A DNA stretch of 64,000 nucleotides from Bryum argenteum (taxonomy: Eukaryota > Streptophyta > Bryopsida > Bryales > Bryaceae). Under the pieces are notes generated by a model, which worked only from the letters and a program-made list of their open reading frames with translations, searched no databases and was not told where the DNA came from. The translations under genes and the position numbers were made by a program. The stretch is taken from contig CM073327.1 in assembly GCA_037043015.1 (NCBI GenBank), positions 16,226,727 to 16,290,726 of the forward strand. Reading direction: 5' to 3'. This document shows positions 1,580-39,322 of the stretch, one piece after another; position 1 is the first letter of the stretch; each line of letters starts with the position of its first letter.

Positions 1580-1586
1580 TTAACCC

Positions 1587-1603
1587 TTAACCCTTAAACG
1601 GCC
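1587..1603. repeat. Left TTAA target copy plus 13-bp terminal inverted repeat of the piggyBac element
   Basis: TTAA at 1587-1590 is followed by CCCTTAAACGGCC. Its partner is 5727-5743. The preceding bases TTAACCC (1580-1586) belong to the element into which this one inserted. Confidence 0.8.
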
Positions 1604-1821
1604 TTGGTCAAATTTTCGGGCAGCCTGAAGAATATCTTTGAGGATCGAAGGGAATCGGGCAGCTGTTGCAATGGAGCATAAACCGTGAAGTGAACAAATA
1701 GAGTAGATCACGAAAAGGGGACCCTTTAATTGTGAATGGGACCAGTTTACTTTTTGAGTGGTGGTGGACCATGACATGGATGTGAGTGCACTGCTTCGCT
1801 CGGTTATCCAGCAAGCATGCT

Positions 1822-1936
1822 GGATTTTGAGGGCCATATAGCATATGCATAGAAATACCTCAATGCATTTTAAATATTGGATTTTGAGGGCCATATAGCA
1901 TATGCATAGAAATATACTCAATGCATTTTAAATATT
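1822..1936. repeat. 57/58-bp tandem duplication inside the piggyBac left end
   Basis: Two copies beginning GGATTTTGAGGGCCATATAG start at 1822 and 1879. They differ mainly by a one-base insertion in ATACTCAATG versus ATACCTCAATG-type sequence. Confidence 0.8.
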
Positions 1937-2016
1937 GATGTGACCAGCTATGCCCCTTAGCAATTATTTGGCACAAGCCATATAGTATTGGTCACATCAA
2001 TATTTAAAATGCATTG
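1919..2016. repeat. Perfect 28-nt inverted repeat with 42-nt loop
   Basis: Arm 1919-1946 (CAATGCATTTTAAATATT..., ending GTGACCA) is the exact reverse complement of 1989-2016. It lies just past the 3' end of the transposase reading frame, so it could act in transcript termination or be part of a subterminal transposase-binding structure; both are inference. Confidence 0.75.
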
Positions 2017-2166
2017 TGGTGAGAGTTTATACAATCTATCTAAGTATATTTCAAAGTCATTTCAGTATAGAAATATAGCAATAGGAAAAAGAAACTATGT
2101 ATACTTTATTTCTAAAATCTCAAAGAAATATAAATATGTACAAAATGAAAACAAACCAGTAAATTG

Positions 2167-3935
2167 TCAAGATTTTGAATGATGAATAACAAAACATTCT
2201 CCCATACAAACCGCTACATTACAAGTGGGACAATACCATTGTCTACTTTTCTTGCACACAACACAGCGATGTCGGAGGCGGGTTTCATGCCCGGACCATG
2301 CCATGGTATAGTGTAACTTACCGGGATTTGGCACCGAGGCCCCTGGCATACAAGTTTGTAATTTTTCTCGCTCTTGAGTCATGGCGTTAGCAACTTCAAC
2401 ATAAAACTTAAATGTGACATTGGTTCAACTCCTCTAAGCACCATAGCCTTTTTATACAAAATAAATGCATTCAAAAATGATTGATCTAAGATATGGAAGA
2501 AAATTTTGTGCCACCATTTGTGGTCACGCCTTTGCAAACTGTAATAACCACGCAATTGATCATGGACATCTACCCCACGCATATGTTTTTGGTAGTGCAA
2601 TAAAACGGGAGAAGCGGGAACTTGAATGTGGCCCCCTACAAGCCAACGGTTAATAAACAAGGACTTGGTAGGATCAATAGGACTACATGCGGTTGAAAGT
2701 AAACATACCGGTTTATTGTCAAACCATGTGACGGCGCACATTCTGCCGCTAGCATGTACCCGATACCACAATTGTCCTCGGGTCCCCGATGTAGGTGAGT
2801 TGATGAGGGCTTGAGGCCAACCAATGCGGTTTGTCCTGCAAGTTCCCGTGGCAAATATCCCACGCTCCAACAATTGCCAAAATAAAGTGGGAGAAGTAAA
2901 AAAGTTGTCACAAGTGATGATGTGGCCCTTACCTTCCAAACCTTTCATGAGATTCAAAACCGTTCTCCCACCAACATTCCCTTCTTCTTGAGAGTCACAT
3001 GCTCCACAATATATCTCTATTTTCTGCACATACTTAGAAGCACAATTTGCAAGACACCAAATTTTCACGCCATATTTTGTAGGTTTAGCCTTCATATATT
3101 GTTTAATTGGAGCATACTTACCAGTATATTTAATCATCATCTCATCAACACATAGATTTTGCTCGGGAAAATAATAATCATTACATAAGTTGTTATGTTC
3201 TACTACTAACCATTCGGTTTTAGCCAATTTATTATATTGTGGGCTACTCTTGTCTACACTTACATCTTTGTTATCTACTAAGTGTATACATCTTAAAATA
3301 GCTTCAAAACGTTTACTAGTCATACATTTTCTAATAGCATCGATTCTAAATAAGTCAACAAAACTTTTGGTCCAATGTAACCTAACAAAGGCAATTTTTT
3401 AAACCCATATACATTAAAACTCCAAAGAATTTCAATAACTCCTTAACCGTCAACCTAACCCAATGAGGTCCCCCACATGTCCTACCTTCACCTAAACTAG
3501 AAGCTGCATATAAATTAGTCATTCTAACAATTTTTACAAGACTTGAATTTGGCCAAAAAAGCAAGAAAAAATCTAAGGGACTCAAACAATTTGACAAAGG
3601 GTCTATTAGTCCTTGACTCCCTCCTACCCAAATAACGGGAGGGAGTTCTTTGCAAGGACTATTCCACATTCCTCCTTGAAATCTATCAACAATAGATAAA
3701 TTACAAAATTCTTCAAATGTTAAATTGCTATCTAAGCCTAATTCTTGTGTTGGTTGAGAGGATTGCATAAACCATCTCTTAGAGTTAGGGTCAAATCAAG
3801 AGATTCTAATTTCTCTACATCATTAGATGAGTGAGAGTTAGATTGCCCTGGTAAATAAGAAAAATCACTACTACTACTTGAACCATGAGAAGGACTTGGG
3901 GTTCTTAGACTTTGACCCCCATAATTGAATTTCAC
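2167..3935 (-). pseudogene. piggyBac transposase, catalytic domain and cysteine-rich C-terminus, frameshifted
   Basis: The catalytic part is in frame 2379-3323. The conserved blocks are NLCVDEMM, HIITCDNFF and MRGVDVHDQLRGYY. Within that 314-residue stretch the aspartates are at 60, 139, 252 and 255, spacings of 79, 113 and 3, like the family's catalytic pattern. Upstream, 3382-3768 holds the start of the DDE_Tnp_1_7 domain (FFLLFWPNSSLVKIV, LLKFFGVLMYMGLK), and 3738-3935 a serine-rich linker. Downstream, 2167-2382 holds the cysteine-rich finger (RHRCVVCKKS, CPTCNVAVC). At least three frameshifts separate these pieces; one sits in a run of six A near 3398. The gene is therefore dead or badly assembled. 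Any true introns could not be separated from frameshifts. Confidence 0.85.
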
Positions 3936-4002
3936 TTACATCTTCAAATTCATTAGTTTCATCAACAAACTTTACTACCGCTTCTGGCACATCAAATGAC
4001 CC

Positions 4003-4803
4003 CTATGGACCATACAATAAAACAGTCAACATTTCTATAGCTAACATGGGGTCATAGAATTCTCTAACTACCGTGCCCCAAAATAATTCCAGAACATTAG
4101 CTTCACTATCTTTTGGTATTATAAGGTTTGGCATCTCACATCTAGGTACCACACAAGATCGACCAAGACAACCCAAGTCAAATAAAGGCACATGTAAATC
4201 TTTATTATAATCGGACCGCAATGTGACATTTCTTCTTGTTGAAGAAGAGGATGCCCAAAATTCTTCAAAATCTATTTCCTGATTACTATCTAAGTGACAA
4301 ATGTCTTCATCACGAAGCGCTTGCAGGAGAGATTCCATGCCCTCACCTTCATGGAGAAACCCCTGTTGCAAACCACCAACAAACGCATTGGTATTCTCGA
4401 GTTGAGAATGTCTCACCTCATCAAATACAACAATGTTTCCAACATTAGGATTAGAAGACTCACCTGTAAACAAAGGGGTTGTTGACTTCGATTGACATCT
4501 TCTTTTCGTCCCGGGCTCTAGAACCAACTCCCCTCCAACACCCAACTGGAGCCTTTGGCGAACTTGCCGATTAGAAGGTCTCACGTGTTGAACAGGGCCT
4601 GGAACTTCCAAGACAGGGCTTCCAACCTGTTGCACAGGACATGGAGCCTGATGAAGAGGCCGGCTGAGAAAAGGATGACCTCCCAAGACGAATGAAGATA
4701 GTTGTGGTGGCGACAAAGGCAACGCAGATACTGGAGAGGACGATCTCCAAGCCACACCTTCCCTCCATTGACCTCCGCTTGCAGTCAAGGACAACGACAA
4801 CAC
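4003..4803 (-). pseudogene. N-terminal region of the same piggyBac transposase
   Basis: A 266-residue minus frame directly upstream of the catalytic pieces. It is low-complexity and proline/serine-rich at the start, then acidic (DFEEFWASSSSTRRN) and ends with a hydrophobic block (LELFWGTVVREFYDP). It is separated from the next piece by a stop and a frame change near 3990. N-termini of piggyBac proteins are poorly conserved, so the assignment rests on position and strand inside the element. Confidence 0.5.
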
Positions 4804-5726
4804 TTTTGGCGCTCCCTATCAAAGCAACCAAACACAACAAACTTATATGAAACTGGAGTGGAGCAAAATTTTCCACATATGATTTCAACAATTGACTCCA
4901 AATCAAGTAAGAATATTAAAAAGAAAGATGACTAACCAAACTGCTTTGCTCCACCGATCGATCACCTCCTGGCAAATTGCTTGGCTCCATCAATCGATCA
5001 CCTCTAGGCTGTAGAGGTAAATTGTGGAGCGCTTCTGCTTCATTGTCAGGCCACCAAATCTCGCGAACGAATTTGTTTATGGAATCGAGAGAATCCACGG
5101 CTTTCTCCTTCACTTCTCCGTTCAACGGGAAGCAAAGCAAATGACGTTCCTTCAAAACAAGAATCTAAAATTTCTAGGTCCAAGAACTTGAGGGAGTACT
5201 ACACCTCCGGGAGCGGGAGAGAGAGCGGGTAAGTTTCATCTAGTAAGCGCACACACTCGATCACAATGGAATCACCTTGTCCTTGACAATCACGCAACCA
5301 ATTCTCAAACTCAGAAACAAATGCTGCTCCGTATCGCTCTCGACGTTCACGCACCTAGTCGGCAACCATTTCGACGTTCTTCTCTACCATGACCGTTGCG
5401 AAACGTCCAAAACAACGAAACTCTCTCCAAATACCTAAAAATAAAATTACTTTATGACACCCGCGATCGAGGCTCTAGAGAAACCAGACGGTGAATGACG
5501 TTGAGAACGGCGATTGAGGCATTCGGGCAGTGCTCAAGCTTCGTGCAACGCCCGATAACCTTGCAATCACAATTGCGAGAGTAATACAACAACAATCGTA
5601 ATGGAAATTGTGAGAATCGATAGAGCTACGGGCCTCGACCGAGCGGCACCAAGAAGGGAATATTCATGCAGTGGAATATTCGGAGAGCCACCGAAAGTTG
5701 TGGAAATAGCCCCTGGGGCTTACGGG

Positions 5727-5743
5727 GGCCATTTAAGGGTTAA
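5727..5743. repeat. Right terminal inverted repeat of the piggyBac element plus TTAA target copy
   Basis: GGCCATTTAAGGG followed by TTAA. The reverse complement is CCCTTAAATGGCC, one mismatch from the left end. The bases that follow (ACGCCCGAGG) continue the terminus of the host element. Confidence 0.8.
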
Positions 5744-5890
5744 ACGCCCGAGGTCCGAAATGGGCGCAGCCCAAATTGGATCATAGCATCTTTTGGACTT
5801 GGGCACTATGAATAGTGCACTTTTTGGACTTGGGCATCATGAATGGACTAATCAATGATGAGCTTGCAACCTCCCACAAGGTTATTATAT
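5744..5890. mobile_element. Remainder of the TTAA-type element that hosts the piggyBac insertion
   Basis: Joining 1580-1586 (TTAACCC) to 5740 onward (TTAAACGCCCGAGG) rebuilds a terminus TTAA-CCCTTAAACGCCC. The following about 145 bp match 38957-39108: both contain GGGCATCATGAAT, GATGAGCTTGCAACC and TCCCACAAGGTTAT. The other end of this host element was not found. Confidence 0.65.
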
Positions 5891-8023
5891 ATGTAGATGA
5901 GCAATAACCTTATTAATTTTCTAAAATTATAATTTTCTTTACATAACAAAGTGGTTACAAAGATATTTTAACAATATTCTATTTATCTTTCAAAAATATT
6001 TTGGTTCTCCAAAGCCTATTAAATTAATTGGCAAAATGTGAATATCTTCAAGAATATACTCAACTGTAATTTTGGCAAAATGTGAATATCTTCAAGAATG
6101 TTGGAAAAATGTGAATATATAGAATATTGGCAAAATATGAATATCTTCAAGAATATTCTAACTGTAATTTATTGTATATAAATCATACTATGTGCTCATT
6201 AGATGTCGAGATCTTGTCTAACTCAAAATTGGATGTCAATTGTTCGAAACAATTTATAGTAAATTTTGTTTTTTTTGTTTCCAATAGGCTTAAGGAACTC
6301 GGTTGGTGGTTGGTTTTCCCGGGTGGTTCACTTTCCGGATACTTTGAGTACCTGTTAGTCTATTTTATATTTAAAATTTCTAATAGGCTTAAGGAACTCA
6401 GGTGGTGGATGGTTTTTCTGTACGGGTTCAATTTCCGGATACGATGAGTACCTTTTAGTCAATTTTGTTCTTTTTGTTTGTAACAGTCTTTAACCCCTAA
6501 AAGTGAGTGAAGCCCAAATCGGGTTAATACGACTTCGATCAGGCTCTCAGTTATTATATTTAGATCGTGTGATGTTGAATTTTTTTTCCTCAAACCCCCG
6601 GCTGCCACGTAAGCAAGAGAAGGTGGGAAAATCTATTGAAAAAAATTATTTGAATTATTCCAACAAACCCCCGGTTGCCACGTATTTGAAATGGAGGAAA
6701 AGCAGTTAATTTTTGGGAGGGGGTTTCAAGGTTCAAAATAGCTGATAAAGACCCTATAAAAATAACAGGACCATCTAAAAAGTTCATAAAAAAATCAAAA
6801 CTATTGTTCCCGGTTTACTTAAGATTGGTTGAGGTGACCGGAACTTTCAATAATAGAGGGATAAAACAAAAGAGTGTAGGAAAAATAATTTTAAATCTTG
6901 GATTGTCTAATTTGTACCTTATGAAAATGATGGTACTTTAAAAAAAATCGTAGGAGTGACGGATGTATGGGCTCGATTTTACTTGCACGTATTGAAAACC
7001 ACCAGAGCTTTGAAAAATAGGAAATAAATAGATATGAGGAGGGATGAGATGATTATAACACTTGGACTAACTAATTATGACCCTATGAAAATTATGGAAT
7101 CATAAAAAAAATCATAAGACAAACGCATCTCCACGTCATGATTTATTTCAATCCTCGAGAACTTTGAATAAGGGGGCGAATGAAGAAAATGATGGAGCAA
7201 ATGTGGCTTTAACACATGAACTAGCTAATCAGGACCATATGAATGTGATGGAAGTGTTAAAATCCTATAGGACAATCAGAATTATGTGCTTGCTAATAAA
7301 TACCCTTAAATACTATGAATACTATAGAAATATTATGTTTTATTTCACATGGACATTGATTTTATCTTAAATTTTTGATCAAACTATCTTTTCAATACAT
7401 TCTTCAATGTTTAGTAAATTTTGATCTGTCTCCTTAATTTAAAAACTTTTGCTTGATCCGTATAATTTTGGAACAGTTTTATAGAATTCCAATTATACTA
7501 ATGCAAAACAATCACTATTGATTGAGTTTGAAGTTTTTTTTCACATATGATATACCATTGCAAACCTATCAATAGAGTGCACAAGTGAGCAAATTTCGTT
7601 TAGAGTAAAATGTTTCTTGCAAGAATCCATTGATGATTAAAGTGGTACATCCTCCAAGGTTCACAAATTTAACTACTATCTAGTATAGGGTGGGTGTAAT
7701 CATTATAATATTTATGATGAACGGTTGGATGTTTGTGGAAGTTCTTGGAATAGTTCAAGGCAAGATTTGATTGTAGTTTTGTAAGGTTGGATACTTAAAT
7801 GAGGTTCAAATTTCATCAAAATTGATTCTAAAGAAAAATCATAGAAAAAAAAATAATTTCTGAATATTTCATTTTCAATTACGAAAAGGAAGGATCTATT
7901 ATTATTGCAACACACATCGCACAACACACCTCTGTTGTAACCCCAACCAAGAATAATTCCTGTTAAAATGTCAACACCATTGTTATATACAAAAGAAACA
8001 CCATGAGAGAAACTTTTGTCATT
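5891..8023. other. AT-rich spacer, no gene recognised
   Basis: Contains a short local repeat: GGCTTAAGGAACTC occurs twice (about 6288 and 6387) with related flanks and a shared TTTCCGGATAC block. At 6489 there is another TTAA-CCCCTAAAAGTGAG end of the short TTAA family, with no partner end found nearby. The many short open frames show no family features. Confidence 0.5.
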
Positions 8024-8312
8024 CTAATTGTCTTCTTCCACATCACTAAGATCAGACAATCCCATTTCTCCCTCTACATCATGTTCAGTTTCATCTAAAT
8101 CCATATCATCTTGTAATTCTTCAACATCCTCAATATCTTCCAATTCCCTCAATCTGGCCATTTCACGTATATTTTGTTCTTGAAGATCTTCATTATATGG
8201 TTCTTCAAAATGATCTTCATTGTCTTCATCTTCGAGCCCCATATCCATATCTATCAACCCTTCTGCAGCTCTATTATAGATCTGAGACTCATAATCTTCT
8301 GAACGATGTGCT

Positions 8313-22500: not shown

Positions 22501-24739
22501 TCAGGAACTGTAGCTATAGTACACCTTTAATTTTCCAGAAAGGAGGAAATAAACGTGATATAGCATGTGGGGGTGGGGGGACGAAACAAACGGTAATGGA
22601 ATCAAAAAAGGACACTTTAGTAGAGTAGAGTGGCCTAAGTGTTTTCTTTTCTAATAGGTGTGTGTGTCCTTTGGAAAAAGCGGATAACATTGACATTTTG
22701 ACAAAAAAAATATTGGGACATTAAGTATTTAGGGTGGGTGGATTAATAATAGGTTCGTCACTTTAGGGGTACGTCAAGGTGAAATGGATAGAGACGCTAT
22801 ACATGGGGAGTCAAGTCAAACATGAGGTTGATGAAGAGCAAAAATCCTCTCAACTTGATTGGTTTATTTTTTGAACTACAAGTTTAGGACCAATCAAATT
22901 GAGAGAATTTTGCCCTCCTTCAGCTTGACTCCCCATGTAAAGAGTCCCTTATATGATACTCCGGCAATCCCATTGTTATTGTCCAGAAGGTTTTTTCAAA
23001 TCTACTTCCCTATGTAGATTTGAGAAAACCTACTAGATAATTATAATGAAACATAGGGAATATGGTTTATAACTTGGTAACGTTCAAGTTATATTTTTGT
23101 ATGTCAACGAGGGCAAGGTTTTGTTTTCTCAAATTTGGAGGTCTTCCGTACTTGAAGATGAGGAAGAGCCAAAAAAATAATTCCAAACCCATTTGAGGCA
23201 AGCATGAAGGTTGACAAGGCTCAAAAAAGTGACAATATATTTTGCAATTGCAATGACTAAAACATTCTAAAAAGTAAATGACCTTATAAAAAAAGGATTC
23301 AGTTATCTTTTGTAACCTTGCGTGATACTCTTTAAGACCCCATCTTCTAGAACTTATGGAAAAAAAGTTTCAAGTCTAACCAACCACCAACCCCTATAAA
23401 CACTTTGTCCCCTAATTCCAAAATTCCCTAAATCATTCCATTGATTCTCTAACCAACCGCCTTGAAAGCAATAGTAGGTGGACCAAGTCCCTTGGAATAC
23501 AGCACCTAAAGCCGCGGGTACACCGGTGGCAAGAATCTCATGAATATCTTTATTTATAAAAATAGCTTCTCCCTTGTGCATGAATATTATTTATATACTT
23601 TTTTATTGGAACATTCCATTTAAATAATGCCAAAACTTAACCAACCCCCACCCCAAATTTGCAAATTCTCAAATTTGCAATTAGAGGACCTAAAATAGAG
23701 GAGTTGACCTCTAATGGAGAATGGAAGGAGAATCTTGTTTTTGGTTAATTTTGATGTTTTTCTCAAAAAATATCCACTTAGATTAGTTGTGGCCTTACAT
23801 GTCCAAAATATGGTTGTCGTACGAGAGTTAGGACCCTTCACATGGTTTGGCAAGGTTAACAAATCTCGAAGTCAATTTTGAGCCCAATTTGGCCCCATGG
23901 CCCACTAAGAGAACACATTGAACAATTAATAAAGTGAAGGCCAATTTTCCCACGTGTAAAAGCCCTTGGGACCAATATTTAGAAGGAAAAACAAGGCCAT
24001 GGGACCACAACTTTGTATTTTTATCCACAACTTATTCATTTTCTTGGATGTTTTTTTATACAAAGAATGGAAGGCCAATCCATGGCCTAGAGGCGGTTGC
24101 TTGGTTATAATACAAAACCATTATTTCACTAAATTATTTTATTGTGAGCAAATCAAAAGCATGGAATGTGGAAAAAAATACAAAGTTGGGAAAAGAATGT
24201 TAAAAGCTTGAGCTTGATCAACACTACCCTCAACGCCATTCCTCCCATGAATATTTGTGAGGTGAAATCGGCTTCTATTTGGTTCATTACACAACTCATT
24301 CATAGAGATATTAACTTTGCCATAAGACATTCACATTCTCGGCATGCTTCCAAGAGTGAGTGTGGTCGAGACTACGTGCTAAATAGGTAGATTAGTGTTA
24401 GATACACTACTTTATATAAACATGTAATAATTTTTTATTGTTGGTCAATATTTTTACCCTCTACATCTGTCAAGATGGGGATCCTTACAAAGTATTGGAA
24501 TCAATACTCTTAGTAAATTTTTTTTATCAAAAGTAAAAACTTACAGCATTTTCAAATCTTATAAAAATCTAACACTAATCTACCTATTCAGTGTACCAAC
24601 CAAAGAATCAAGATTGAGCTTACTAGACTTTACTATATGGGCACTTTTGGAAGACCTCATCTTTGACCGTGACAAGTGGCTTTGAGGGATTGAGTGTTAT
24701 CTTCATGACTACAATGCTAAGAAAAGTAGGCACCTTAAC

Positions 24740-25405
24740 CCCTAAAGATCCACGATGTTTTGGGAGCTTGAATTCCCAACACTGACCACTATGTACTAAT
24801 GCGGGTACGTCCAGTATTTTTGGAAATTGTTGATAACTTCAACTGTAGGATCTTGAAGTAGACTACCATAGGTAGAAGTGTGAAAATTTTCAATCATTGG
24901 ATCATCACTGGATGTGAGATCGTAATATTTGAAGTTGACTGTAATTTTTTTTTGGCCTTGACAGTAAAAGCCGAATCGGTGGCCATGGTCGTTTCGGGGT
25001 TAAAAACCCTCGTGACTCTCTCAACCTTTCCATTGCTGCCAGATGGAGTGACTTTCTTCCTCCTACCTTTAGGCCCAACTAGAGAGAGGTCTAGAAGATA
25101 TCCAAATCCCACAAGGAAGCATCTAAACGACCACGGCCACCGATTGTTTTGTGGGTCACTTGAATTAATCCTTAAACGTCATATGCTTTCCTGATACCAC
25201 ACCCAAAATCTCTTTTAAACTCCATTTTTAGCATTATTCTATTTTTAATTTGCTTGAGCTCTATTCTAAGAAAGTATAGATCTCTTTAAGGTGCTCAGTT
25301 TGGAATTCTAAAAATTCCATTTGGTATAATGGAGTGTAAGTTATGAGCAAGATTCTCTCAAAAAAAAAAACCCAACCCCTCGGGCCGGGTCTCACGTTTA
25401 AGGGT
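24740..25405. mobile_element. Candidate short TTAA element
   Basis: Left: TTAA followed by CCCCTAAAGATCCACG, resembling the right end of the 27240-27823 element in reverse complement, including the phrase GGGAGCTTGAA. Right: CACGTTTAAGGG followed by TTAA. The two ends match each other only partly, so pairing them is tentative. Confidence 0.4.
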
Positions 25406-26005
25406 TAAGAGTAACATCATGTGTTTCTCCAATGAAGAACACTCCAAGCAATGTAATATGTCCTCGCAATCAAGAGCGCTTGGACTAAACAAGAACCAAC
25501 TTGCTCATTATAACACATCTCCAACACAAGGCCAAATTGCTAAGTAATGACTGAATTGGATTGGAGATTTGTTGGCCTTGACTCCCAGTGTAAAACGCCC
25601 CGCCACAGAGGTTCATGATTGTATTTCTCTCAATTGATTATTACATTGATTAGTTCAAAAAAATTTAAAAATTGATACCTCCAGAGTCCATCAATTGCTG
25701 ACGTCACTTCATCTGACGTCAGCTTTTAATGGAAATCTGGGGCACATCTCCTGTCCACCACCAATTTGTGTCAGTGAATTGTTGGGCGGAACTTCCAAGA
25801 AATTCCAGGAGATTCCAGTGGAAGTTAAGCCATTTTGTTCAAATTCGAGAGATTCACTGACTATTTAAATAGTTACGGTCCAGCTTGTGGAATGTTCCCT
25901 TAACGACTTTGGTAGTATTGCCACATGCACATTCTTTCATTTAATATATAACACTCCTAAAAGTCAAAATGAATGAGGGCCCAAATCTTTAGATTGCAAG
26001 ATCGC

Positions 26006-26014
26006 AACACCCAA

Positions 26015-26062
<48 letters not shown>

Positions 26063-26337
26063 CAAATGAAAGTACTTTCATTGCATGAGAAAGAGTACAA
26101 CCCCAGCCACAAGTGGCCTGGGAAAGAAACAAAAAAAGAATTAGTAGCCTCTAAGCCTATGACTTTCTAACAGACAGACAGAGCCAGAGCAAGGACACGC
26201 TATGCAAATCACGGAATGCCCATACGCCTCGTCCCGCCTCATCCCTACTGCCTCAACTGCTTAGTGCAATTCAAAGACAAATACTGCAATTGGTCCAACT
26301 GGCTGCCATATTGGCTGATCACAGTGAACACCCAAAG
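26006..26337 (-). mobile_element. Poly(A) retroposon (LINE tail or SINE) with 11-bp target duplication
   Basis: A run of 46 T at 26017-26062 is the poly(A) tail of a minus-strand insertion whose body extends to 26326. AACACCCAAAG occurs directly before the T run (26006-26016) and directly after the body (26327-26337). This is the product expected from target-primed reverse transcription. The body has no clear reverse transcriptase, so it is either a strongly 5'-truncated LINE or a SINE. Confidence 0.8.
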
Positions 26338-27042
26338 TTTGTGCAAAAGTTTTCTGAGACATTGTCTTCATGGAGCAAAGCACTATTCCGGAAGTTTTTA
26401 ACACAATTCAGCTATTACCCCCTTCTTCATAAAATTATTCGGTAATTCTATTTGATACATGTATGATACTTGGCTAATACCCATGTGATACTTCGGCGAT
26501 ACTTAGAATATGAGTTGGAGAAAAAACCTAACTCTTTCAAATTGAATCGGTAATTTGACAACTTCGTTCGGCTGATTGACAACTGACTAGCGATACTTTC
26601 CGATCCTCGGTGCAAATAGAAACTTGAAGATTGTTGTTCCAAACAACTTGGCAATATTTTATTTGATTTTCATGTAGGTAAATAATGGAGTTGGATACGC
26701 TCATGCAAAATTTTAGAGACTCATTCCGTTTGTTTTTTACTTTCTTCAAAAAAATTCTAGAAAGTGTGCTTTATGAGTTTGTGAATTTTGAGAATTTTTT
26801 TTTTAGAAGAATTCCAAAATCTCGAGTTTTAATAAATTTTGTAAGATATGATTTGGAAGTTGTGAAGATTGATTCTGCAATCATTTGGAGGTTGCTCTTG
26901 TAGAATTGACAAACTTATTGATTTAAATGACTTTGGAACTTGAATAATGAATTGGGTATGAACATATTTTTCTAGAAGAAACTTCATCAAAAGTGTAAAT
27001 ATAACTGCCCCTTTTGGACTTGAAACCTATAATTTTTAAATG

Positions 27043-27400
27043 AGAGCTTTAAATTTGGAATTTGGCTTCTACAAATTTTACCACATACGGTTTGCACTAC
27101 AAGGAGCACGTTGTAAGAAGCTTGGGCAAAAATATTACTTTTAATCTTTTAACAAGAGCGAGATTGAGTCATACTACAATTTATACGAAGTGGTCGAACA
27201 TTAAAGGCTAAAAATCACGCTTGGGCCTTTAGAGATTAACCCCTAACTCTCCTTGAAGCCTGAAATGGGTTTTTGCAATTTCGGGCAGCCTAGATGAAGA
27301 AGTTAAAAGTAATATTTTTGCCCAAGAGTTTTATTGGGTCCTCCTTATAATGCAGAGTGTATGTGGTAAAATTTGCAAAGTCAAATTCCAATTTTTGAGT
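27043..27400. repeat. Foldback with about 100-bp imperfect arms
   Basis: 27043-27145 and 27303-27400 are inverted relatives: both arms contain, in opposite orientation, AAATTTTACCACATAC and TTGGGCAAAAATATTACTTTT. The left end of the next TTAA element lies in the spacer between the arms. Confidence 0.7.
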
Positions 27401-27823
27401 CATCTAGGATGATCCTTCCGAGATGGGGTAGCTTAAAAAAGTAACTTTTAACTTTTCACTTATAACTTTTAAAGTAACTCTTGAAACATGTTCATTACTA
27501 AATCGCTACTCAAATTGTAAAGTGACTCAAGTCAAAAAGTTTACCACTTTTACAAGGGCATGCTTCAAAATTTTCAAAACCAATCTTCGCAATGCCCAAA
27601 AAAACTTGGGAAACAAACTTTGGATGTTATGATCTCTCAAATGGTAAACATCCAACGATCAATTTTTTGAATAGTAATAAAGCATATTCTTAGATACAAG
27701 ATCTTACGGTTGGAAGTTTTAAAAAGAGAAGGAAATTGGTTCACACCCCCACGAGTGCTTAGAGGTAGAGAATCGCAGTTTTGAGGTTTCAAGCTCCCAA
27801 AAAACACCAAAGAGATTTAGGGG
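27240..27823. mobile_element. Short TTAA-bounded element (584 bp)
   Basis: TTAA at 27236-27239 precedes CCCCTAACTCTCCTTG. TTAA at 27824-27827 follows an end whose reverse complement is CCCCTAAATCTCTTTG; the termini match at 14 of 16 positions. No coding capacity. It is a candidate non-autonomous piggyBac-type element. Confidence 0.65.
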
Positions 27824-27956
27824 TTAACACATACACTTTGCACTATAGGGAGCACACAATGAAAATGTGAGTCAAAAGTATTGATTTTAACCCCTTCAAA
27901 TGGGCTCCTCAAATCCCAAAAACCTAGTTTGGATTTTTAGGATTTTTAGAAATTAC

Positions 27957-35434: not shown

Positions 35435-35487
35435 TCAGCATATATGCTGATGAGATCGATTCAAGTCAATGACTTGATGTTTGTTAA

Positions 35488-36330
35488 CCCCTAAAGTTGA
35501 AAGCCCCCAAAACTGTCACAACTCCTCAAAACCACCCTCTTTCAATGCAAGATGAAAATTTTAAAGGTTCGACGTAATCTCAAGTATGTAACCGTAAGAT
35601 CTTGTACTTAACTTGTCCATGTATGTGTGTACCAAAACTTAGTTTGAAATTCCTTACCAATTGTGAGATCATTTCATTCAAAGTTGAAAAAAAAGTTTTT
35701 TTCCCTTGTTGCAAAATGGGTTCGAAGTTTTTTGTGAGCCCAAAAAACCAACTTCAAGAGTAAACTTGAAATGAGGCTCTTCAAGTTATTGTTCCTAAGT
35801 GAGTTAGGAACATGCCTATGCAATTTTTACCCTCATGCGACCCATAAAACATAAAGAAATGCTTGATTATTCACATGGAGGTATGTTGAAATTTAACTTC
35901 AAAGGCCCCTCTTTGACGATAAAAATGGCATGTGAAGAATAATCGGATGAAAGATCCAAACGGTGAAACTATGCCTTAAAACCTTATTTCCAAGTACAAA
36001 AAACAAAACTTGAAAAAAAGTAAAATCTCAATTTTTGGTGAATTTCTGAAGTTCCTGCGATCTTATTTGTTTTGGGCAGATTTTGAGAATAAACGAGCAT
36101 ATACCTCAGTTTGGGCAGTTTTGGGCAGATTTCAAATAGTGTTTTCAAACTTTGACCGTGAATATCTCCTAAAGTATGAGGAATTTTGGAGCATGAAATG
36201 ACTTTTCGGAAAGCTATGGAAAAACTCTTCAACCTGCATAAGGTTTCAATGTCAGACGAACTAAATATAGTATGTACGGGGCTGACCAGACTGCAAACGA
36301 CCCGATTCGGGCTCTTTTCGACTTTAGGGG
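35488..36330. mobile_element. Short TTAA-bounded element, best copy of its family (843 bp)
   Basis: TTAA at 35484-35487 and 36331-36334. Left end CCCCTAAAGTTGAAAG; right end in reverse complement CCCCTAAAGTCGAAAA. Internal sequence matches 27957-28776 and, inverted, 21560-22075. There is no transposase, so it would depend on one in trans, plausibly piggyBac-type from the TTAA target. Confidence 0.8.
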
Positions 36331-36700
36331 TTAACTTGAGACATTTGCCATTCTCTTTTTGAGTTCTTAGTACATATGTTTTATAGTCTTTGTACTTCTA
36401 AAGTAAGCTACTATACAAGTATGTGAAATTTTACTGGAAGTAGATCCGCATAGTTTGAAGTCGGAGTGCATACGCTTCTTTACCAATAATGTTGTTGTAA
36501 TCGATTTGACTGCGATTATTTATGGTGGAAGCGGCGTTGTCTTAGACATGTCATAGATGTACATCTCATGAAAATTGTGTGTGACAAGTGAATAGGAATT
36601 TTGTCTGACAAGACAACCCTGGGTGAAAGGCATGTCAAGTTATAATCACAGAGAAGGTGATACTTGATGAGCAATTCAAAGGCGCTATCTACCCTCAAAT

Positions 36701-38947: not shown

Positions 38948-39322
38948 CCCTTAAACGCCCATGGGGTCTGGAACAGGCAGCCCAAAATTGAATCACAACA
39001 TCTTCTCGACTTGGGCATCATGAATAGTGCACTTTTTGAATGAATGAATGACCTTGGGCTGCATGAATCAACCAATGAGTGATGAGCTTGCAACCTCCCA
39101 CAAGGTTATGTACAACCCCAACCTGCCTACCTACCACAATCCTTTCAAAGCATAAAATCACTCATACAATTTGTGATTTGAATTGTTAAATTTCACTTTT
39201 TGAATACATCGTAAGAAGATGATCAGTTGGACATCAAAATATAAGTGAAAAGTTGAGTACACTGCGAGAGTTGAGATTTTATTCGAAAATATGCCACTCA
39301 AGCTTGCTTGGGCATGTAAGAG
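38948..39322. mobile_element. Short TTAA-type element of the family that hosts the piggyBac insertion
   Basis: Left end CCCTTAAACGCCC preceded by TTCA; right end reverse complement CTCTTACATGCCC followed by TTAA at 39323-39326. The termini match at 10 of 13. Its first 160 bp match 5744-5890. Confidence 0.55.

Follow-up and report, generated by a model that had tools for sequence, protein, structure and literature searches.

The closest described relatives of the element treated here, a piggyBac-type transposon at positions 1591-5739 of a 64,000-nucleotide stretch of Bryum argenteum DNA (the window, G000:C7:16226727-16290726), are piggyBac (6x67/6x68) and piggyBat (9c0f). They are alike in transposase sequence, in three Asp motifs, in TTAA duplications and in ends starting with CCC. 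In contrast to both, the terminal repeat of the present group holds a target TTAA at bases 4-7. To our knowledge, classic piggyBac and piggyBat ends have no inner TTAA.

In corals, excerpts of one report describe CMITEs, piggyBac-type miniature inverted-repeat transposable elements (MITEs) in tandem arrays attributed to slippage between highly similar units, together with CMITE-IN, an apparently mobile unit derived from MITE insertion at TTAA (PMC2872659). The elements described here are likewise piggyBac-type MITEs with TTAA that form arrays, but as far as those excerpts go they differ from the coral arrays in that many units are unlike one another, have TTAA duplications and leave remnants of split repeats, here called rungs. 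In maize, rice and carrot, MITEs often land in elements of the same family, the "safe haven" idea (excerpts of PMC3695323, citing Jiang and Wessler 2001). Unlike the nesting in those excerpts, the site used here is one fixed terminal-repeat position that is re-created by the insert at each step. The bacterial IS30 is similar in that its own inverted repeats serve as preferred targets; according to the excerpted sections it differs in that the element is joined beside the repeat, forms IRL-IRR junctions exclusively and does so by a reaction unlike its duplication-forming hot-spot insertion (PMC9333248). Excerpts on Xenopus Kolobok/T2-MITE (PMC6004289) and on piggyBat (PMC11707139) held no parallel. 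Titles and abstract openings among the matches listed in the open-licence literature held no TTAA-bearing piggyBac ends building such ladders, which leaves their absence unproven. Same-family nesting of MITEs is already known; here a terminal inverted repeat (TIR) contains its own target, is recurrently used and forms short ladders.

Insertion site of the window element

Direct reading of positions 1580-5749 gave TTAA-CCC-TTAA-[element]-TTAA-ACGCCC, which is the flank layout claimed in an earlier note on this DNA. The features of the insertion are as follows.

1580-1586, + strand: remainder of the host terminal repeat on the left side, comprising the outer TTAA (1580-1583) and CCC (1584-1586), together one rung (direct reading)
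1587-1590, unstranded: left copy of the TTAA target-site duplication, the inner terminal TTAA of the host (direct reading)
1591-5739, - strand: inserted piggyBac-type element, 4,149 bp, with ends CCCTTAAACGGCC / CCCTTAAATGGCC (inverted ends and internal transposase homology)
5740-5743, unstranded: right copy of the TTAA target-site duplication (direct reading)
5744-5885, + strand: inner part of the host MITE, starting with ACGCCC (ACGCCCGAGG from 5744; 89% identity with the MITE as far as its position 150)

In forward-strand letters, the inserted element reads CCCTTAAACGGCC from 1591 and finishes with GGCCATTTAAGGG at 5739, and its ends together with the TTAAs form a 17-nt inverted repeat that is 94% complementary. 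Positions 5740-5885 are 89% identical in alignment to a 362-bp MITE over its positions 4-150; the far end of this host is out of sight because it is recognisable only to 5885. When the flanks were joined by script without the element, an intact TTAACCCTTAAACGCCC was obtained, which bears out the claim that removal of the element and one TTAA restores a host terminus. It is confirmed that the window element occupies exactly the inner TTAA of the terminal repeat of a related MITE. The earlier note had matched the restored terminus to a second copy in the window:

38948-39320, + strand: decayed MITE of the 362-bp type, uninterrupted terminus for comparison (82-83% identity)

This copy is indeed the same MITE, but TTCA rather than TTAA stands directly before it.

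Genome-wide junction counts

The genome searched comprised 258.8 Mb in 25 contigs. Junctions were counted as exact matches on both strands and compared with a control, the same pattern read backwards. TTAA-flanked ends (TTAACCCTTAAA) numbered 8,992 (control 229), and CCC-TTAA-CCCTTAAA with the further flank unrestricted occurred 365 times (control 2). The seven bases of the window remnant preceded TTAA-CCCTTAAA at 184 places, giving the count of left junctions (TTAACCC-TTAA-CCCTTAAA; control 0). Right junctions (TTTAAGGG-TTAA-ACGCCC) numbered 96 (control 0), about 1 being expected with random flanks. Two elements shared one TTAA at 80 loci (control 0; the pattern is its own reverse complement), and seven double ladders were found (control 0). 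The repeated insertion and the CCCTTAA ladders predicted in the earlier note are thereby found in the genome.

At two ends per copy, the left junctions correspond to about 4% of copies and the shared-TTAA loci to about 2%. Most copies sit in unrelated TTAAs, and the inner-site signature is present in roughly 4% of them. The earlier note had named two observations as speaking against it, namely that most copies insert in unrelated TTAA sites and that no uninterrupted host terminus exists. The former is the case, whereas uninterrupted host termini are plentiful, since CCCTTAAACGCCC, the end of the 362-bp MITE, occurs 3,694 times genome-wide (control 2).

Remnants and ladders at individual loci

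Right junctions were read at 54 of the 96 places (the window, L009-L038, three in L059, and L084-L103). A remnant was accepted if it was exact or differed by no more than two bases, and the nearest upstream end was taken as that of the insert. A matching remnant lay at the insert's far end in 40 of the 54 junctions read, or 40 of the 46 judged. Six had no matching remnant (L011, L017, L019, L031, L035, L085), and eight were left unjudged (L016, L025, L028, L037, L038, L092, L100, L101). L014 and L015 represent a single event that was duplicated (98.5% over 1 kb). Automatic exact pairing within 8 kb matched 21 of 49 right junctions against the 100 left junctions listed, and many of the right junctions without an automatic match carried mutated remnants when inspected by eye. 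On contig C2, 6 of the 30 listed left junctions pair with an exact right junction. Twenty C2 regions, chosen among the left junctions without an exact right junction and covering 21 of the remaining 24, were read. A host lay opposite in nine, one of which had a second right-end nest; two were ambiguous (L064, L067) and three unjudged.

At L059 on C4, five elements lie end to end. Three left rungs (CCC, CCC, CCT) are accompanied by exactly three internal TTTAAGGG-TTAA-ACGCCC junctions over the whole nest, and the fourth element holds a fifth MITE at its right end, with TTAA-GGG-TTAA outside that MITE. Serial self-insertion is clear at this locus. It is likely at L108/L109 on C6, where rungs and junctions number two each and an unread gap of about 670 bp separates the stretches covered. 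All seven double-ladder loci were inspected on short stretches only. L105 showed three rungs and one junction, L073 and L107 one junction and L104 none, too little sequence having been read there to judge. One rung is usual and three are the most seen. The telomere mimicry that the earlier note attributed to such ladders is unsupported. No ladder seen exceeds three rungs, and the three readable contig-end stretches showed no telomere-type repeat with which ladders could be compared.

At L076 (G000:C2:22675084-22675880), a third element seemingly holds, in the TTAA at its right end, an element that itself carries a nest; this makes three levels with both ends involved.

Proposed mechanism

Inserts are framed by TTAA duplications and split the terminal repeats of their hosts, their junctions recur in pairs, rounds of insertion are serial, and their numbers exceed expectation. 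These observations are likely to be explained by ordinary TTAA-directed cut-and-paste insertion, the target lying inside the TIR itself, with no dedicated targeting system. The group would comprise transposase-bearing copies and MITEs of the piggyBac superfamily whose terminal repeat starts with CCCTTAAA. The TTAA that the earlier note saw inside the members' own ends is present three bases in, at bases 4-7. Before insertion, an uninterrupted host end would read TTAACCCTTAAACG. The transposase may treat the inner TTAA as an ordinary target, and insertion there would divide the end of the host, leaving TTAA-CCC outside as a remnant and ACGCCC inside, with a new intact insert end beside the remnant. 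The inserted end would bring an inner TTAA again, and therefore the event could repeat, each round leaving one 7-bp rung outside and one TTTAAGGG-TTAA-ACGCCC junction inside.

An end of this kind gives a natural and countable record of self-insertion, written in rungs and junctions. MITE arrays, and possibly composite transposons, could arise by this concrete route, and the system is a clean one for separating a transposase's preference for its own ends from a preference for the bases that happen to stand there.

Excess over average TTAA use

Expected counts were based on a TTAA density of 5.2-6.5 per kb, taken from fetched stretches rather than from a genome-wide count, and the number of insertions was set at half of the 8,992 ends. 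With this genome-wide count of ends, which the earlier note had proposed as a check, the inner TTAA in ACGCCC hosts was found to be used 6.7-9.7 times as often as the average TTAA (96 right junctions against 9.9-14.4 expected at equal use, these expectations being upper limits as the hosts had to exist first). All left junctions numbered 184 against 24-35 expected (5.2-7.7x), about one third of those judged on C2 being without a host. The outer TTAA beside element ends was hit at 80 loci against 24-35 expected (2.3-3.3x). Within ACGCCC ends, 96 inner hits stood against 54 outer strand hits (p 8e-4), the latter corresponding to 46 loci after eight offset pairs were merged by eye.

This excess may come from a preference for C-flanked TTAA, from shared insertion neighbourhoods and from better survival in existing elements. 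For the flank preference, 110 sites were collected, 10 were dropped because the flank resembled the end of another element, and 100 were used (38 from listed copies, most of them on C1, 42 at the outer flanks of hosts that had been hit and 20 at host far flanks). C was favoured at position -1 (37/100 against 18% in the background) and at -2 (29% against 17%), and the product of the single-base preferences predicts a 4.4-fold use of the inner site (95% 1.7-10.3). Shared neighbourhood (2.3-3.3x) multiplied by flank preference (roughly 1.2-2.6x, estimated from 27 background sites) would span most of the excess, and a residual two- to threefold effect of the terminal repeat itself may be present.

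A young family, MITE-237, served as a control.

25167-25404, + strand: MITE-237, young family (one genomic end CCCTTAAACGTCATA; window copy TCCTTAAACG)

The end CCCTTAAACGTCATA shares its first ten bases with the terminus of the ACGCCC family. At an internal TTAA of MITE-237, chosen as the internal-site control since the 362-bp MITE showed none, one junction was found per 394 intact sites, a low number with little power. The junction rate of MITE-237 is about that of the background and significantly below that of ACGCCC hosts (Fisher p 5e-4). Median pairwise identity was 95.8% in MITE-237 (9 copies) against 90.6% in the ACGCCC family (96 copies), and the younger MITE-237 would have had less exposure, leaving few junctions.

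Several results speak against insertion by ordinary cut-and-paste as the whole account. Among the 20 C2 regions, plain DNA lay opposite the rung in three (L069, L078, L082) and an adjacent element in three (L071, L080, L081), so that about one third of the judged C2 rungs have no visible host. Two rungs but one clear junction were present at L096 and L106, and two junctions but one rung at L035/L036; with such disagreements, rungs cannot be taken as a faithful count at every locus. CCC-flanked sites when counted directly give only about 1.7x (181 against 104 expected, with a CCC background of 27/2,324), and mutated remnants are included in the 181. With 4.4x predicted and about 1.7x counted, the excess can be divided among its sources only loosely. 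Terminal junctions of MITE-237 amounted to 1 per 427 intact CCCTTAAACGTCATA ends.

Alternative explanations

Under dedicated self-targeting, transposase on a resident end would draw incoming elements to the neighbouring TTAA, somewhat as in IS30. We consider this unlikely. It would fit the inner sites being used 7-10 times as often as the average TTAA and, within ACGCCC ends, more often than the outer one, but hits are enriched at this outer TTAA, 7 bp away, as well, and flank preference together with retention may account for the gap between the two. No orientation rule was apparent in the 13 pairs with both ends typed (A-B 5, A-A 4, B-A 3, B-B 1; small numbers). MITE-237 ends, which have the same bases, are without excess, and this weighs against general self-targeting. 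For the self-targeting claimed in the earlier note, the excess in the ACGCCC family thus lends weak support, while the enrichment is partly shared by the outer TTAA and absent in MITE-237.

Tandem duplication or replication slippage, invoked for the coral CMITE arrays in the excerpted report (PMC2872659), would be a still less probable source of the arrays and 7-bp rungs. Slippage or unequal exchange could yield the host-less rungs (L069, L078, L082), the surplus rungs (L096, L106) and the rung-less junctions, and L014/L015 is a segmental duplicate. Against slippage, the junction end of the insert begins with CGCC in 21 of the 53 junctions typed and otherwise in 32, so that the insert differs from the host in the latter; the split-repeat remnant is present in 40 of 46 judged right junctions; and rungs and junctions are equal in number throughout the nest at L059. 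On this last count, unequal crossing-over was rejected as the sole source of the arrays, though it may lie behind L035/L036, L096, L106 and the host-less rungs. Pure chance, by which high copy number alone (8,992 ends) would place copies in the ends of others, fits the counts of MITE-237 but is very improbable given those of the ACGCCC hosts (Poisson p at most 1e-45).

Identity between insert and same-family host was 0.916 over 13 pairs, two of which (L037, L095) are slices running beyond the insert, against 0.901 between insert and unrelated host (p 0.33). Because the pairs are no closer than unrelated hosts and the types are mixed, the inserts come mostly from elsewhere. Sister-chromatid hopping was rejected as a general route on the same values; L084 (identity 0.992) could be a single case of it.

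Fate of nested pairs

Returning to ordinary insertion at the inner TTAA, a hit host would lose one usable end and might borrow the outer end of the insert, in which case the pair may move together. It is a tentative suggestion that self-insertion is generative in this way, a nested pair moving as a composite and the terminal repeat acting as an assembly slot for new transposons. Such a composite would have the complete outer insert end and the complete far host end, both beside TTAA, and would leave the rung behind. Single elements may in turn carry rungs off, or keep them after recombination collapses a pair. The products would be rung-less pairs, as at the six loci without a matching remnant (L011, L017, L019, L031, L035, L085), and host-less rungs (L069, L078, L082). 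The rungs of the six pairs could also have been lost by 7-bp slippage or recombination, and the host-less rungs could be scars of collapsed pairs. If composites do form, rungs would record past self-insertions even where the inserts are gone.

Transposase coding regions

Three coding pieces were recognised within the window element.

2379-3323, - strand: 314-aa open reading frame (ORF) encoding the catalytic portion of a piggyBac transposase (PF13843, E 3e-55)
3382-3768, - strand: 128-aa ORF, N-terminal end of the DDE domain (PF13843, E 8e-9)
2161-2430, - strand: Cys-rich C-terminal piece RHRCVVCKKSRQWYCPTCN (frame differs from that of the 314-aa ORF)

The 314-aa and 128-aa ORFs are separate and both parts of one DDE_Tnp_1_7 domain. 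Since the domain is split over these ORFs and the Cys-rich piece is out of frame, this copy is frame-disrupted. The 314-aa ORF matches piggyBac 6x67 (E 4.9e-23) and piggyBat 9c0f (E 1.1e-18), and its VDEMM, CDNFF and GVDVHDQ motifs were aligned by phmmer with IDEQL, CDNWF and GVDTLDQ of 6x67. The aligned Asp of the three motifs are presumably the catalytic residues. An uninterrupted transposase ORF of 897 aa (PF13843, E 1.4e-82) was found on C1 in the 5.19-kb L048 element (2979-8169 of G000:C1:23337000-23346999), which has ACGCCC ends and TTAA flanks. The window 314-aa ORF is 80% identical to it over 311 aa, and a Cys-rich C-terminal domain was recognised in it by eye. The group thus has the DDE_Tnp_1_7 transposase, the TTAA duplication, the three aligned Asp and the Cys-rich C-terminus of the piggyBac superfamily.

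In the left part of the window element, at 1821-2020, a stretch of 37 bp is directly repeated at a distance of 57 bp, and a perfect inverted repeat of 28 nt is present; this is a possible subterminal structure.

Family termini and other copies

The 362-bp MITE has CCCTTAAACGCCC ends, and most copies examined are flanked by TTAA on both sides; no interior TTAA was seen in the copies looked at. Both the ends and the TTAA flanks are shared with the transposase-bearing L048 element, and the MITE is therefore placed among the piggyBac/TTAA MITEs on its TIRs only. Judged from its sequence, the L048 element is likely the autonomous partner of this MITE. The 10-mer CCCTTAAACG had six matches within the window at up to one mismatch against 3.0 expected, which is not a significant enrichment (9/100 shuffles give as many).

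C1 (44.1 Mb), the largest contig listed, holds only 72 of the 3,694 ACGCCC ends and no nested right junctions among the matches listed. Several C1 copies (L039, L040, L041, L045, L051, L004, L007) have similar flanks, with TTTT or ATTT on one side and TTAAATCTTT on the other, and may belong to a larger MITE-carrying repeat amplified by another route.

Two further stretches of the window, 24735-27827 and 35484-36334, have ends TTAACCCCTAAA ... TTTAGGGGTTAA. The young MITE-237 copy sits within the former. Each is probably an element of a sister group; the terminus of that group, CCCCTAAA, has no inner TTAA, and the group would serve as a natural control for inner-site insertion.

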